Assembly: GCF_022288725.1 (NCBI RefSeq)
Contig: NZ_JAKNTA010000002.1
Coordinates: forward strand, 470,404 to 534,403
Origin: Kitasatospora sp. A2-31
GTDB taxonomy: Bacteria; Actinomycetota; Actinomycetes; Streptomycetales; Streptomycetaceae
Direction: 5' to 3'
DNA length: 64,000 bases
Each line of letters starts with the position of its first letter. Within the stretch, counting starts at the first letter, position 1. Shown here piece by piece: positions 3,415-38,375 of this stretch. The notes below the pieces were generated by a model, which searched no databases, was not told where the DNA came from, and saw only the letters and a program-made list of their open reading frames with translations. The translations under genes and the position numbers were made by a program.

Positions 3415-4806
3415 TCAGGCCTCCGCCGCGCGGCGGACGCTCCGGGCCACCAGGACGGCGGCGAGGGTGCAGGCCGCGGCGGGGAGGAGCATCGCCACGG
3501 CCGGCGAGCCGTCGTCGGCGCGGGCACCGGCCCCGAGGAAGGCGCCCGTCGCCGCGACGCCGAGGGTCGCGCCGACCTGGCGGACGGCGTTGAGCAGGCC
3601 GCCGGCCGCGCCGGCGGTGCCCTCGGGGGCGGTGTCCATCACGGCGGTGACCAGTGCCGGCAGGGCGAACGAGACGCCGAAGCCGGCGAGCAGCAGGCCC
3701 ACCGCCAGCAGCGCGTACGGGGTGCCGGCCGACACCGCCGCGGCGAACACCGCGCAGCCCGCGGCGAGCAGCGCCAGCCCGCCCAGGACCGGCCGCCACG
3801 GGCCGACCCGGGCGACGATGCGCCCGGTGAGCAGGGGGTTGAAGCCGGGCGGCAGGGTCATCGGCAGGAACGCCAGCCCCGCCACGGTCGGGGACAGCCC
3901 CAGCGTCTGCTGCAGGACCAGCGGCAGCACGAAGAGCACCCCGACCATCGCGAAGTTGACCGCGGCTCCGGCGAGCAGGAGCGTCGGCACCCCACGGGTG
4001 CGCAGCAGCGCCGGCTGCAGCACCGGGGCCGGGCTGCGCCGCTCGCGGGCGGCGAAGACGATCCCGGCGGCCCACGTTCCGGCGGCGGCGCAGCCCGCGT
4101 GCGTCCACGCGCCGGAGCCCGAGGCGATCAGCGCGTCGGTGAGGAGGGCGAGCGTCGCGCAGGCCGCCAGCTGGGTCCACCAGTCGATGCGCCGCGCGCC
4201 CCGCGGGCAGTGCACGGCCGGTCCGGCCACCAGCGCCAGCACCAGGGCCGCCAGCGGGACGTTCACCAGGAAGACTGCCCGCCAGCCGGAGAGGTCGACC
4301 AGGACCCCGCCGGCCATCGGCCCGAAGGCCATCGCGCAGCCGCTGACCGCGGCCCAGACCGCCATCGCGCGGGCCCGCTCCCGGGATGCCGGGTAGAGAC
4401 GGGCGATGACCGCGGTGCCGGCCGGGACGGAGAGCGCGGCGGCGGCGCCCAGGACGGCGCGCAGCAGCACCAGCGTCCGGAGATCGGGTGCGAACGCGGC
4501 GAGCAGCGAGCCGGCGCCGAACGCGGCGATACCGAACCGGAAGGCCCGGTGGGCACCGAACCGGTCGGCTACGGCGCCCGCCGAGAGCAGCAGTGCGCCG
4601 AAGGCGACGCTGTACCCGGTGACGGCCCACTGGAGGCCGGCCGTCGAGCTGCCGAGCGATCCGGCGAGGTCGGGTTCGGCCACGGAGAGCACGGTGGTGT
4701 CCAGCAGGACCATGAAGTAGCCGAGGGCGACGCCGAGCAGGCCGCGGGCGCGTCCCGGGGGCCGGGTCGGCGAGATCGGCGGGGTGGGGGCAAGGGCTGC
4801 GGTCAT
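3415..4806 (-). CDS. MFS drug exporter, DHA2 (14-TM) family
   Basis: A 463-residue proton-coupled antiporter of the EmrB/QacA type. The N-terminal helix reads LLGVALGYFMVLLDTTVLSVAEPDL with the family's D-x-T-V motif, followed by AVADRFGAHRAFRFG (motif A loop), a central pair of extra helices around the DALIASGSG region, and a C-terminal half beginning GVPTLLLAGAAVNFAMVG. Length matches DHA2 members. The start at 4806 has CGGAGATCC upstream. It is transcribed divergently from a LysR regulator across a ~150-bp region holding a LysR-type box, so it is probably under that regulator's control. The substrate cannot be read from sequence. Confidence 0.9.
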   Translation of the reverse strand: MTAALAPTPPISPTRPPGRARGLLGVALGYFMVLLDTTVLSVAEPDLAGSLGSSTAGLQWAVTGYSVAFGALLLSAGAVADRFGAHRAFRFGIAAFGAGSLLAAFAPDLRTLVLLRAVLGAAAALSVPAGTAVIARLYPASRERARAMAVWAAVSGCAMAFGPMAGGVLVDLSGWRAVFLVNVPLAALVLALVAGPAVHCPRGARRIDWWTQLAACATLALLTDALIASGSGAWTHAGCAAAGTWAAGIVFAARERRSPAPVLQPALLRTRGVPTLLLAGAAVNFAMVGVLFVLPLVLQQTLGLSPTVAGLAFLPMTLPPGFNPLLTGRIVARVGPWRPVLGGLALLAAGCAVFAAAVSAGTPYALLAVGLLLAGFGVSFALPALVTAVMDTAPEGTAGAAGGLLNAVRQVGATLGVAATGAFLGAGARADDGSPAVAMLLPAAACTLAAVLVARSVRRAAEA

Positions 4807-17271: not shown

Positions 17272-17348
17272 TGGCGGCGAGGGCAGGATTCGAACCTGCG
17301 TCCACCCGGAAGTCAGAGCCGGGCGCTCCTCCGCAGAGCTTCCTCGCC
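17272..17348 (-). tRNA. Non-canonical tRNA with nine-base anticodon loop, CCA encoded
   Basis: Reading the minus strand from 17348: acceptor GGCGAGG pairs with CCTCGCC, then discriminator G and an encoded CCA. D stem is GCTC/GAGC with loop TGCGGAG; T arm is GCAGG-TTCGAAT-CCTGC. The anticodon stem CCCGG/CCGGG closes a nine-base loop, CTCTGACTT (17310-17318), instead of seven. Forcing a seven-base loop leaves a C-T mismatch and no U33. Bases 14 and 21 are also not A. The anticodon therefore cannot be assigned safely. It may be a specialised or undetermined-type tRNA, or a decaying gene with an intact body. Confidence 0.7.
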
Positions 17349-36468: not shown

Positions 36469-37200
36469 GTGGCCAAGCTGAACCAGATCATCGCCGTCGA
36501 AAAGGGCGTCAAGTCGAAGTCGTTCCAGGAGCTGACGCAGGCTCACCAGGACCTGCAGAAGCCCGCGCTGCTCGCCGGCATCTCCCGGACGTACCAGCCC
36601 AAGGACGAGGAGGGCGAGCAGCTGCCGCCCGAGTCCACCCGGGTGCAGGTGAAGGCCGAGGACGTGCTGCGCTCCACCGCCGCGACGCTGACCCGGCTGT
36701 TCGACGTGACCGCGACCAAGGACTGGGCCAACACCGAGGCCCGGGCCGACGTGGTGGTCGACGGGCGGACGCTGGTGGCGGGTGCGCCGGTCACCTACCT
36801 GCTGTTCCTGGAGAAGCAGCTGACCGACCTGCGGACCTTCGTCCGGAAGCTGCCGGTGCTGGACGCCGCCGAGGCGTGGAACCACGACGCCTCCACCGAC
36901 TCGTGGAAGACCGAGGCGGTGCGCACCATCCGTACCAAGAAGGTCCCGCGCAACCACGTGAAGGCCGAGGCGACGGAGAAGCACCCGGCGCAGGTCGAGG
37001 TGTACTACGAGGACGTCGCGATCGGGTACTGGACGACGGTGAAGTTCTCCGGCGCCCTCCCGGCCCGGCGGGTGAACGAGCTCCTGGAGCGGGTCGAGAA
37101 GCTCCAGCAGGCCGTCCAGTTCGCCCGCGAGGAGGCCAACGGCGCGGAGGTCACGGACCGCCGGGTCGGCGACGCGGTGTTCGGCTACCTGTTCGGGTAG
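36469..37200 (+). CDS. Conserved protein of unknown function upstream of permuted tRNAs
   Basis: A 243-residue soluble protein with no signal or membrane segment, beginning AKLNQIIAVEKGVKSKSFQE and continuing QKPALLAGISRTYQPKDEEG. I believe near relatives are annotated DUF7873 in actinobacteria; none has a known activity to my knowledge. The middle has LRSTAATLTRLFDVTATKDW; the end is helical (ARRVNELLERVEKLQQAVQF). The GTG is six bases after TAGCTT, so the mRNA is probably leaderless. It is followed without a terminator by RNA that folds as two permuted tRNAs and then a strong hairpin, suggesting one transcription unit. It could bind, process or be controlled by that RNA. Confidence 0.8.
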   Translation: MAKLNQIIAVEKGVKSKSFQELTQAHQDLQKPALLAGISRTYQPKDEEGEQLPPESTRVQVKAEDVLRSTAATLTRLFDVTATKDWANTEARADVVVDGRTLVAGAPVTYLLFLEKQLTDLRTFVRKLPVLDAAEAWNHDASTDSWKTEAVRTIRTKKVPRNHVKAEATEKHPAQVEVYYEDVAIGYWTTVKFSGALPARRVNELLERVEKLQQAVQFAREEANGAEVTDRRVGDAVFGYLFG

Positions 37201-37206
37201 CCCCAT

Positions 37207-37246
37207 GATCGCCCCCGGGTGAGACCGGGGGTGGCGCGAAGAGCGC
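37207..37246 (+). ncRNA. Two leader hairpins before the permuted tRNAs
   Basis: CCCCCGG/CCGGGGG around GTGAGA (with outer GCC/GGC pairing possible), then GCGC/GCGC around GAAGA. They start within ten bases of the protein stop. They may fix the 5' boundary of the tRNA-like RNA. Confidence 0.45.
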
Positions 37247-37274
37247 AAGCTGACACTGAGGTTGAAGCTGACAT

Positions 37275-37356
37275 CGGGGAACAGGTGGAGGTTCGAGTCC
37301 TCCCCCCGGCACCACACGCCGGGGTGGCCCAACACGGAGAGGCAGCCCCGTGAAAC
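37275..37356 (+). tRNA. Circularly permuted tRNA 1 (candidate GAA anticodon)
   Basis: Order on the DNA: anticodon-stem 3' strand GGGG (37276-37279), variable bases, T stem GGAGG with loop TTCGAGT and CCTCC (37287-37303), 3' acceptor CCCCGGC (37304-37310), A, encoded CCA, three bases, then 5' acceptor GCCGGGG (37318-37324), D arm with GG in its loop (37327-37343), anticodon-stem 5' strand GCCCC (37345-37349) and GTGAAAC. The acceptor pairs perfectly over seven bases across the junction. U33, GAA at 37352-37354 and A37 fit a phenylalanine-type loop. A 5-bp CTGAG/CTCAG helix outside the anticodon stem could position processing. A permuted reading satisfies all four stems; a normal order does not. 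Confidence 0.7.
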
Positions 37357-37422
37357 TCAGACTCTCGCTCAAGTCTCAGCATTCGCCGCCGAGCGCCGGA
37401 TCGACCGGTCTGGGGCCGAGAA

Positions 37423-37500
37423 CGTCGAGATGTGGGTTCGATTCCCGCCTGCGCCTCTCCACGGCGCGGTAGCTTGAACGGCAAAGCGCGACGTCGTGAG
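37423..37500 (+). tRNA. Circularly permuted tRNA 2 (candidate GTG anticodon)
   Basis: Anticodon-stem 3' strand CGTCG (37423-37427), AGAT, T arm GTGGG-TTCGATT-CCCGC (37432-37448), 3' acceptor CTGCGCC (37449-37455), TCTCCAC, then 5' acceptor GGCGCGG (37463-37469), T-A, D arm GCTT-GAACGGCA-AAGC (37472-37487), G, anticodon-stem 5' strand CGACG (37489-37493), loop TCGTGAG. Acceptor pairs over seven bases with one G-U; anticodon stem pairs perfectly across the permutation. Position 33 would be C, not U, so the GTG anticodon is tentative. CCA is not directly encoded after the discriminator. Same permuted order as tRNA 1. Confidence 0.7.
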
Positions 37501-37510
37501 ATTGACCCCC

Positions 37511-37548
37511 GGCCTTAAACGTGCCGGTGCAGAGCAATTGGGTGGCAC
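37511..37548 (+). ncRNA. Alternative hairpins after permuted tRNA 2
   Basis: CCGGC (from 37510) can pair with GCCGG (37523-37527), or GTGCC (37521-37525) with GGCAC (37544-37548); the two stems share bases and exclude each other. A switch or processing site is possible. Confidence 0.35.
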
Positions 37549-37552
37549 ACCA

Positions 37553-37586
37553 GGGGCCCGGGAGCTGGATACCGCTCCCGGGCCCC
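37553..37586 (+). terminator. 13-bp perfect hairpin terminator
   Basis: Arms GGGGCCCGGGAGC and GCTCCCGGGCCCC around TGGATACC. It lies after the permuted tRNAs and before the convergent RDD gene, and is the first strong stop after the 36469 gene. Confidence 0.8.
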
Positions 37587-37652
37587 GTCACGTCCACGCC
37601 GGCCCGCGTGCGACCGGCATCCGTCCGGAGCCGGCTCCGTCGGTGAGCGGTG

Positions 37653-38375
37653 TCAGGACTCCTTGACGACGATCGTCTTGGCGGCCTTGTCGTGCAGGGC
37701 CTGCTGGAGGGGCTTGTCCCACAGCGGCCACAGGACGTTCAGCAGGGCGAACAGCGAGCCGATGCAGTAGACCGCGCCGGGCAGGCTGTACACGGCGGCG
37801 CGGGCCAGGTAGCCGCTCTCGGCCGCCTTGCCGCCGTGCCCGAGGTCGACGGCCCGCAGGCGCAGCGCCTTCTTGCCGAGCGTCTGGCCGCTCTGGGTGA
37901 TCAGCATCACGGCCTCGTAGCCGAAGGCGAGCAGCGCCGTCGCGACCGACAGCAGGAAGGAGTTCTTGACGGCGAGGAAGAGCACGACGTTCGGGATCAG
38001 CAGCACGGCCACGTCGATCAGTCGGGCCAGCAGCCGCTCGCCGATCGGCGCGAGCTGACGGCTGCCGGGTATCGGCGCCCCGCCGTAGGAGCCGGTCGGC
38101 GGCAGCCAGTGCGGCCAGCCGCCCTGCGGCTGGCCGAACGGAGGCTGGCCGTACGCAGGCTGGTCGAACGGCGGGGGAGTGCCGTAGCCGCCCTGCGGCT
38201 GCTGCCCGTACGGCGCCTGCTGGCCGTAGGGTGCCTGGCCGTACGGGGCCTGCTGCCCGTAGGGGCTCTGACGGGGGCTCTGGCCGTACGGGGGCTGCTG
38301 GCCCTGGCCGCCGGACCGGTCGTAGGGGTTCTGGCCGCTCGGGTAGCCGTATCCCGAAGGATCGTTCGTGCTCAT
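37653..38375 (-). CDS. RDD-family membrane protein with PYGQ repeats
   Basis: A 240-residue protein. Residues 1-100 are disordered Gly/Pro/Tyr/Gln-rich repeats (PYGQQAPYGQAPYGQQAPYG). Residues about 105-235 form an RDD domain with helices LLARLIDVAVLLIPNVVLFLAV and LLSVATALLAFGYEAVMLI; the Arg-Asp pair is in LARLIDV, followed by SGQTLGKKALRLRAVDL. The family is membrane-embedded with no agreed role, often with a disordered actinobacterial N-terminus. The nearest ribosome-site candidate (GGAAG) is farther than usual from the ATG. Confidence 0.85.
   Translation of the reverse strand: MSTNDPSGYGYPSGQNPYDRSGGQGQQPPYGQSPRQSPYGQQAPYGQAPYGQQAPYGQQPQGGYGTPPPFDQPAYGQPPFGQPQGGWPHWLPPTGSYGGAPIPGSRQLAPIGERLLARLIDVAVLLIPNVVLFLAVKNSFLLSVATALLAFGYEAVMLITQSGQTLGKKALRLRAVDLGHGGKAAESGYLARAAVYSLPGAVYCIGSLFALLNVLWPLWDKPLQQALHDKAAKTIVVKES

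Follow-up and report, generated by a model that had tools for sequence, protein, structure and literature searches.

A Kitasatospora locus with two circularly permuted tRNA-like modules, probably one Y-RNA-like noncoding RNA with DUF7873 as its predicted partner

What are two tRNA-like cloverleaves, each with its 3' half placed before its 5' half, doing side by side in a bacterial chromosome? The pair lies in a stretch of 64,000 nucleotides from Kitasatospora sp. A2-31 (the window), where an earlier note had read two circularly permuted tRNA genes at 37275..37500. The region concerned, 37200-37590, is the gap between a gene of the DUF7873 family and an RDD-family gene on the minus strand (37653-38375). 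We ask here whether the folds are real, what accompanies them, and whether they are tRNA genes at all.

The two permuted folds were confirmed by direct reading. In each module the order is anticodon 3' strand, variable loop, T arm, 3' acceptor strand, a loop of 7 nt, 5' acceptor strand, D arm and anticodon 5' strand. Module 1 has its T arm, GGAGG-TTCGAGT-CCTCC, at 37287-37303, followed by the 3' acceptor strand CCCCGGC (37304-37310), the loop ACCACAC (37311-37317), the 5' acceptor strand GCCGGGG (37318-37324) and the D arm (37327-37343), while its anticodon stem joins CGGGG (37275-37279) to CCCCG (37346-37350). In module 2 the corresponding parts are the T arm GTGGG-TTCGATT-CCCGC (37432-37448), CTGCGCC (37449-37455), TCTCCAC (37456-37462), GGCGCGG (37463-37469) and the D arm (37472-37487), with the anticodon stem formed by CGTCG (37423-37427) and CGACG (37489-37493). 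The acceptor pairings GCCGGGG/CCCCGGC and GGCGCGG/CTGCGCC, as well as the second anticodon stem CGACG/CGTCG, are thus present as they had been described. In the genomic order neither module is reported by ARAGORN, or by Rfam at the gathering threshold. When the halves are swapped into tRNA order and introns are allowed, ARAGORN calls both as tRNAs, module 1 only if an intron is placed in its anticodon loop. Both permuted modules appear, as two lollipops, in the minimum-energy fold of the window RNA; shuffled copies of 37230-37545 fold with energies as good as that of the stretch itself (z -0.01). The features of the locus are collected in Table 1.

Table 1. Features of the DUF7873 locus, in positions of the window
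Feature	Position	Strand	Evidence and remarks
DUF7873 gene (PF25283), 243 aa	36469..37200	+	Pfam E 3.7e-120; predicted protein partner of the RNA
Small hairpin preceding the hexamer repeats, perhaps belonging to the 5' part of the RNA	37234..37246	+	Sequence; centroid fold
Hexamer-repeat strand AAGCTG-ACACTG-AGGTTG-AAGCTG-A	37247..37271	+	6-nt periodicity across 111 loci
Permuted tRNA-like module 1	37275..37352	+	Model R1, 69.8 bits, E 5.7e-18
ACCA immediately 3' of the module 1 3' acceptor strand	37311..37314	+	NCCA here in 29/57 non-redundant loci
Second hexamer-type strand AAACTC-AGACTC-TCGCTC-AAGTCTC-AG	37353..37379	+	Conserved in relatives; partial pairing with 37247-37271
Stem below module 2, 5' side	37408..37415	+	Fold; swapped-partner duplex test z -18.7
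Permuted tRNA-like module 2	37420..37496	+	Model R2, 64.6 bits, E 3.5e-16; Rfam YrlA 26.6 bits, below gathering cut-off
Stem below module 2, 3' side, then conserved CTTAAACG block	37506..37521	+	Conservation in relatives; duplex test
GC-rich hairpin closing the conserved region; candidate terminator or end of the RNA	37553..37586	+	Sequence and alignment; without T run

Neither a sigma-70 promoter nor a T-run terminator was found at the RNA locus, and the terminator scan did not report the closing hairpin. Elsewhere in the window, ARAGORN gives a four-base anticodon (ctga) to a minus-strand tRNA gene at 17272-17348, whose loop has 8-9 nt by eye; this could be a frameshift-type or a decayed tRNA.

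Among 41 genomes (that of the window and 40 relatives), DUF7873 is found in 29, and the RNA region has matches in the same 29. A thirtieth DNA match (G016, locus L030) was rejected as spurious, being 35 bp long and unaccompanied by DUF7873. In all 29 loci (own genome and 28 relatives) gene and RNA share a strand, the RNA match starting 31-107 nt after the end of the gene match, and one genome (G026) holds two copies of the RNA, each beside its own DUF7873 gene. A thinner draw over the phylum gave DUF7873 in 6 of 296 genomes, all belonging to the family of the window; in one control genome, Deinobacterium chartae, DUF7873 and TROVE matches are both present. The family also occurs in phages (73 of 50,697 phage records by tblastn), and the linkage persists in those whose DUF7873 is 30-59% identical to that of the window. 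Two modules are found in phages of Arthrobacter, Gordonia, Rhodococcus, Klebsiella and Pseudanabaena. Indeed, each of the first six phage loci, those of the Klebsiella and Pseudanabaena phages included, has two modules by the detector or the models described below. Among four further phage loci (Rhizobium, Vibrio, Microcoleus and Pseudanabaena PA-SR01), one has two modules, those of the Rhizobium and Vibrio phages have one each, and that of the Microcoleus phage has none; after DUF7873 the latter carries a fold that by eye is tRNA-like and in normal order (L211, 3790-3870). In Gordonia phage Phendrix (L032, 1572-2100) Rfam matches a tmRNA at 89 bits among tRNA genes, where no feature is annotated. 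As judged from sequence comparison, DUF7873 is the constant partner of the permuted pair, a partner that had gone unmentioned in the earlier note.

A permuted-arm detector, which requires paired T, acceptor and D arms and leaves the anticodon stem unselected, was run on the 900 nt downstream of 179 DUF7873 genes, from 80 actinobacterial genome loci, 89 IMG/VR loci and 10 phage-record loci; 3 of 182 loci, with less than 450 nt downstream, were left out. The gene ends of most loci were fixed at 3726 and may be off by up to 12 nt. At least one module was detected in 170 of the 179 downstream stretches and at least two in 123; among the controls, 4 of 177 upstream stretches held a module, as did 3 of 179 reverse complements. 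When covariance models were added for 56 weak loci, two or more modules were found within 1 kb of DUF7873 at 142 of 179 loci, one at 31 and none at 6; 19 of the 142 rest on covariance-model matches, some of them weak and possibly including tRNA neighbours. One of the six loci without a module within 1 kb (L198) does have both, some 1.2 kb past the DUF7873 gene and on the strand opposite to it. Two collection scans were limited to their best 80 loci, and the actinobacterial rows are for that reason close relatives. Furthermore, seven viral contigs were entered twice and nine pairs of viral loci show no difference over 400 nt, so that the 179 loci are not independent. A set of 57 loci, from which near-copies had been removed (36 IMG/VR, 15 actinobacterial and 6 phage-record loci), was therefore used where stated.

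The covariance models R1 and R2 were built from viral and phage rows only, with no bacterial genome record, and they find modules 1 and 2 of the window at the E values of Table 1; the best other match in the 64 kb (E 2.7e-4) overlaps an ordinary tRNA gene. At E <= 0.001, R1 matches 39 and R2 matches 41 of the 41 genomes, and a lone match is therefore not specific for the DUF7873-linked RNA; R1 matches of at least 57 bits all fall, among these 41 genomes, in genomes with DUF7873. Four further R2 matches in the own genome were set aside, and the two that were checked (L240, L243) are tandem ordinary tRNA genes, as is the match of a relative (L247).

Compensatory changes in relatives, which the earlier note had named as a check, are present in both modules. 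In the alignment of module 1 (A4, 28 of the viral and phage rows that gave the models) 91.3% of the pairs are formed, against 68.4% after shuffling, with a covariation score of 0.562 against 0.155; in that of module 2 (A5, 23 rows) the values are 89.0% against 61.4%, and 0.718 against 0.203. None of 500 shuffles reached the covariation score of either alignment, and sliding the partner by one column brought pairing below 50%. Rows were dropped by hand, mostly divergent ones (28 of 38 candidates were used for A4 and 23 of 26 for A5), and the high pairing of the T, acceptor and D arms is partly by construction, because a module was detected only if these arms paired. Covariation is seen in the acceptor, T and anticodon stems and, for module 2, in the D stem as well; in module 1 the three pairs of the D stem are invariant and thus uninformative. 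For the anticodon stem, over the 57 loci, pairing is 0.59 in module 1 and 0.61 in module 2, against 0.43 and 0.42 with swapped partners. At tRNA geometry the z values are 5.2 and 7.5, each the best of 45 offset combinations tried.

The conserved structure extends beyond the cloverleaves. A 6-nt repeat with the consensus RVYTSA flanks module 1: over 111 loci, the lag-6 identity reaches 0.415 on the upstream side and 0.382 on the downstream side, while a shuffle of the same composition, for which the upstream region only was used, gives 0.271. Of 195 motif spacings listed, 111 are of 6 nt. In 56 loci the flanking strands prefer their own partner over a swapped one (z -7.1 for the strands of module 1, -18.7 for those of module 2), in test windows that may contain a few anticodon-stem bases. 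Each module therefore appears, on this comparative evidence, to cap an extended stem. Cross pairing of the strand before module 1 with that after module 2 gave z -0.95 (56 loci). The strand after module 1 with that before module 2 gave z -4.7 over all loci and -1.5 over the viral ones, and a link between the two stems by this route is possible. At the other end of the modules, the acceptor loop measures 4 to 67 nt among 122 loci (the upper limit of the detector being 69), and NCCA follows the 3' acceptor strand in 29 of 57 module 1 and 20 of 57 module 2 loci, far above chance. One module only is found in 15 of the best 80 actinobacterial loci. In Streptomyces bicolor (L100, 3835-3930) module 1 is, by eye, without T arm and acceptor; a small hairpin is left and the core is kept. 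Across the loci compared, module 1 is the variable part of the RNA.

The protein of the window matches the Pfam DUF7873 profile with 400.6 bits (cut-off 27), and the family counts at least 7273 proteins at E <= 0.001 among 7999 candidates scored. One viral reading frame of the family (L190, 3001-3726) has an internal stop codon. The structure model (pLDDT 93.6, pTM 0.67) shows long helices and a long beta hairpin at 151-190, and comparison of the model with the PDB gave no convincing structural match. A conserved part of the hairpin (151-178) is basic, with a charge of +4 in the window protein and a mean of +3 (range 0 to 5) in 72 aligned sequences. RNA binding by DUF7873 is a guess, drawn from the linkage.

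Taken together, comparison among loci shows tandem permuted cloverleaves, anticodon stems continued into longer stems, the RVYTSA repeat, and the linkage of gene and RNA. The modules are probably parts of a tRNA-mimicking noncoding RNA rather than tRNA genes. We favour with some confidence the reading that both belong to one noncoding RNA of Y-RNA-like character, in which DUF7873 is predicted to take the place of Ro. A single transcript would carry the RNA, made together with the DUF7873 mRNA or following it. DUF7873 would bind the stem and repeat core, perhaps with several subunits on successive hexamers, and the exposed tRNA mimics would dock an enzyme that handles tRNA, such as RNase P, PNPase, the CCA-adding enzyme, or modification or repair enzymes; the docked enzyme would then be tethered to DUF7873, or kept occupied. 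In phages, where the unit often stands among tRNA genes, it might serve the protection or management of the phage tRNA pool. Against this reading stand a folding energy like that of shuffles, the 6 of 179 loci without a module, and the net charge of the whole window protein, which is -1; moreover, a purely closed form of the mimic does not explain the enrichment of NCCA.

Permuted tRNA-like modules are already known in bacteria, as Y RNAs: in PMC13355120, the tRNA-like domain of a bacterial Y RNA (PDB 6CU1) is given as a circularly permuted match to tRNA. The locus could then be an ordinary Y RNA pair that binds Ro/Rsr or another general partner, with DUF7873 as a mere neighbour in the operon. 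A permuted module carried on a stem, as in YrlA, agrees with this, and so do the sub-threshold matches to Rfam YrlA (RF02553), of 26.6 bits (module 2) and 20.2 bits against a gathering cut-off of 69. YrlA-type Y RNA is known in phages as well. Four regions of Kitasatospora relatives (L244, L245, L246 and L248) hold a separate, YrlA-like Y RNA pair with modules about 270 nt apart (L244 1610-2002, L245 1721-2116, L246 2041-2397). The Y RNAs of L244-L246 also fail the RF02553 cut-off, at 29.8 to 38.8 bits, and the threshold test therefore discriminates poorly, which again leaves room for an ordinary Y RNA. Downstream of the pair in L244 lies the gene of a protein that matches TROVE (E 1.4e-15) and, just below cut-off, VWA, and the TROVE assignment among the four regions is that of this one protein. 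A third copy of GGTTACTTC occurs in all four, in L244 and L245 between the modules and without a tRNA-like module. The own genome has no match to Ro/Rsr (TROVE), DUF7873 was not detected in the four loci, and GGTTACTTC, the core motif of the Ro-type Y RNAs, is absent from the 900 nt that follow each of 182 DUF7873 genes. Thus the Ro-type Y RNAs of the genus form a separate locus with a different core, and DUF7873 keeps its RNA across bacteria and phages with widely differing hosts, which argues against a mere operon neighbour; an ordinary Y RNA pair is accordingly unlikely. As far as the sequences tell, the DUF7873-linked RNA may work like a Y RNA without being filed as one.

Phage and host copies of the RNA might, alternatively, soak up defence or toxin nucleases that attack tRNA, DUF7873 stabilising the bait. 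The fetched sequence, a few kb around each gene, includes tRNA genes at 44 of 80 viral against 18 of 80 actinobacterial loci, which speaks for a decoy. The usual target of such nucleases is the anticodon loop, of which the modules have no free copy, and the unit is kept in bacterial chromosomes too; we hold this explanation to be doubtful.

The enrichment of NCCA bears on another proposal, a tRNA-like RNA in two pieces, whose acceptor loops would be cut and whose modules would each be charged at a CCA end. In two-piece tmRNA the acceptor halves likewise stand in permuted order, joined by a loop. As NCCA is common after the 3' acceptor strand, such a cleaved form has to be considered; NCCA is absent from 28 of 57 module 1 and 37 of 57 module 2 loops, and the spread in loop length, 4 to 67 nt, also speaks against the proposal. 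We give it little credence.

The claim that the locus encodes two tRNA genes giving mature tRNAs found no support. For such genes the ends would be joined at the anticodon loop and the acceptor loop cut by RNase P and tRNase. The covarying stems, the acceptance of the reordered sequences by ARAGORN and the NCCA counts would all suit them, and the genome encodes RtcB in two regions, so that ligation of the ends is possible; of these regions, the one just before the window (G000:C112:467167-468460) has its match split into two adjoining pieces that differ in frame. Letters adjoining the anticodon stem of module 2 show weak preferences (T at position 35 and A at position 37, 34 of 57 loci each), and no single letter at positions 32-37 exceeds 34 of 57 loci. 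If fixed stem offsets are assumed for every locus, a T stands at the U33 position of module 1 in 13 of 57 loci and at that of module 2 in 22 of 57. With neither anticodon nor U33 fixed, with module ends that run on into covarying stems and repeats (a splicing helix could resemble an extended stem), with module 1 of L100 stripped of T arm and acceptor while the rest is retained, and with no match in the genome to the archaeal-type splicing endonuclease PF01974, true permuted tRNA genes are very improbable. PMC10085705 describes the permuted tRNA genes of algae and some archaea as giving mature tRNAs by splicing.

For the preferred Y-RNA-like reading, we consider it an even chance that the locus represents an undescribed, Ro-independent class of ribonucleoprotein, in which a DUF7873 multimer would read the hexamer ladder and show one or two permuted mimics that capture tRNA-handling enzymes; large phages would carry it in their tRNA arrays and actinobacteria as a chromosomal gene. 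Its novelty is provisional: no description of DUF7873 with a permuted pair was found in the literature searched, outside which Chen 2014, Wang 2018 and Sim 2020 lie, and the open-licence PMC literature holds no mention of DUF7873 and nothing that joins Streptomyces, tRNA-like and Y RNA. The work offers a family of thousands of proteins without known role a function that can be tested and a candidate partner RNA, and it suggests that bacterial mimicry of tRNA by permuted folds does not depend on Ro. In several large phages it also accounts for a stretch without annotation that adjoins the tRNA array or lies inside it. Experiments could start from the 6-nt ladder or from those lineages in which module 1 has been lost, and if DUF7873 binds the RNA as predicted, there would be a new kind of RNA-protein particle to study.

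Among known systems, the RNA resembles two-piece tmRNA in its permuted acceptor halves linked by a loop, and differs from it in that the modules have a D arm, a T arm and an anticodon stem and stand in tandem. With the permuted tRNA genes of algae and some archaea it shares the 3' half preceding the 5' half, all arms being present; those genes yield mature tRNAs, whereas the modules of the window have no fixed anticodon. The Ro-type Y RNA loci of Kitasatospora relatives likewise have two tandem permuted modules, in L244 beside a TROVE gene, and are set apart by their spacing of about 270 nt, their GGTTACTTC core and, in L244, their position upstream of the TROVE gene. Like YrlA, the RNA described here bears a tRNA-like module in permuted order, whose acceptor end is closed and which sits on an extended stem (z -7.1 and -18.7); unlike YrlA, it usually has two modules in tandem, a core of hexamer repeats, and DUF7873 instead of Ro.
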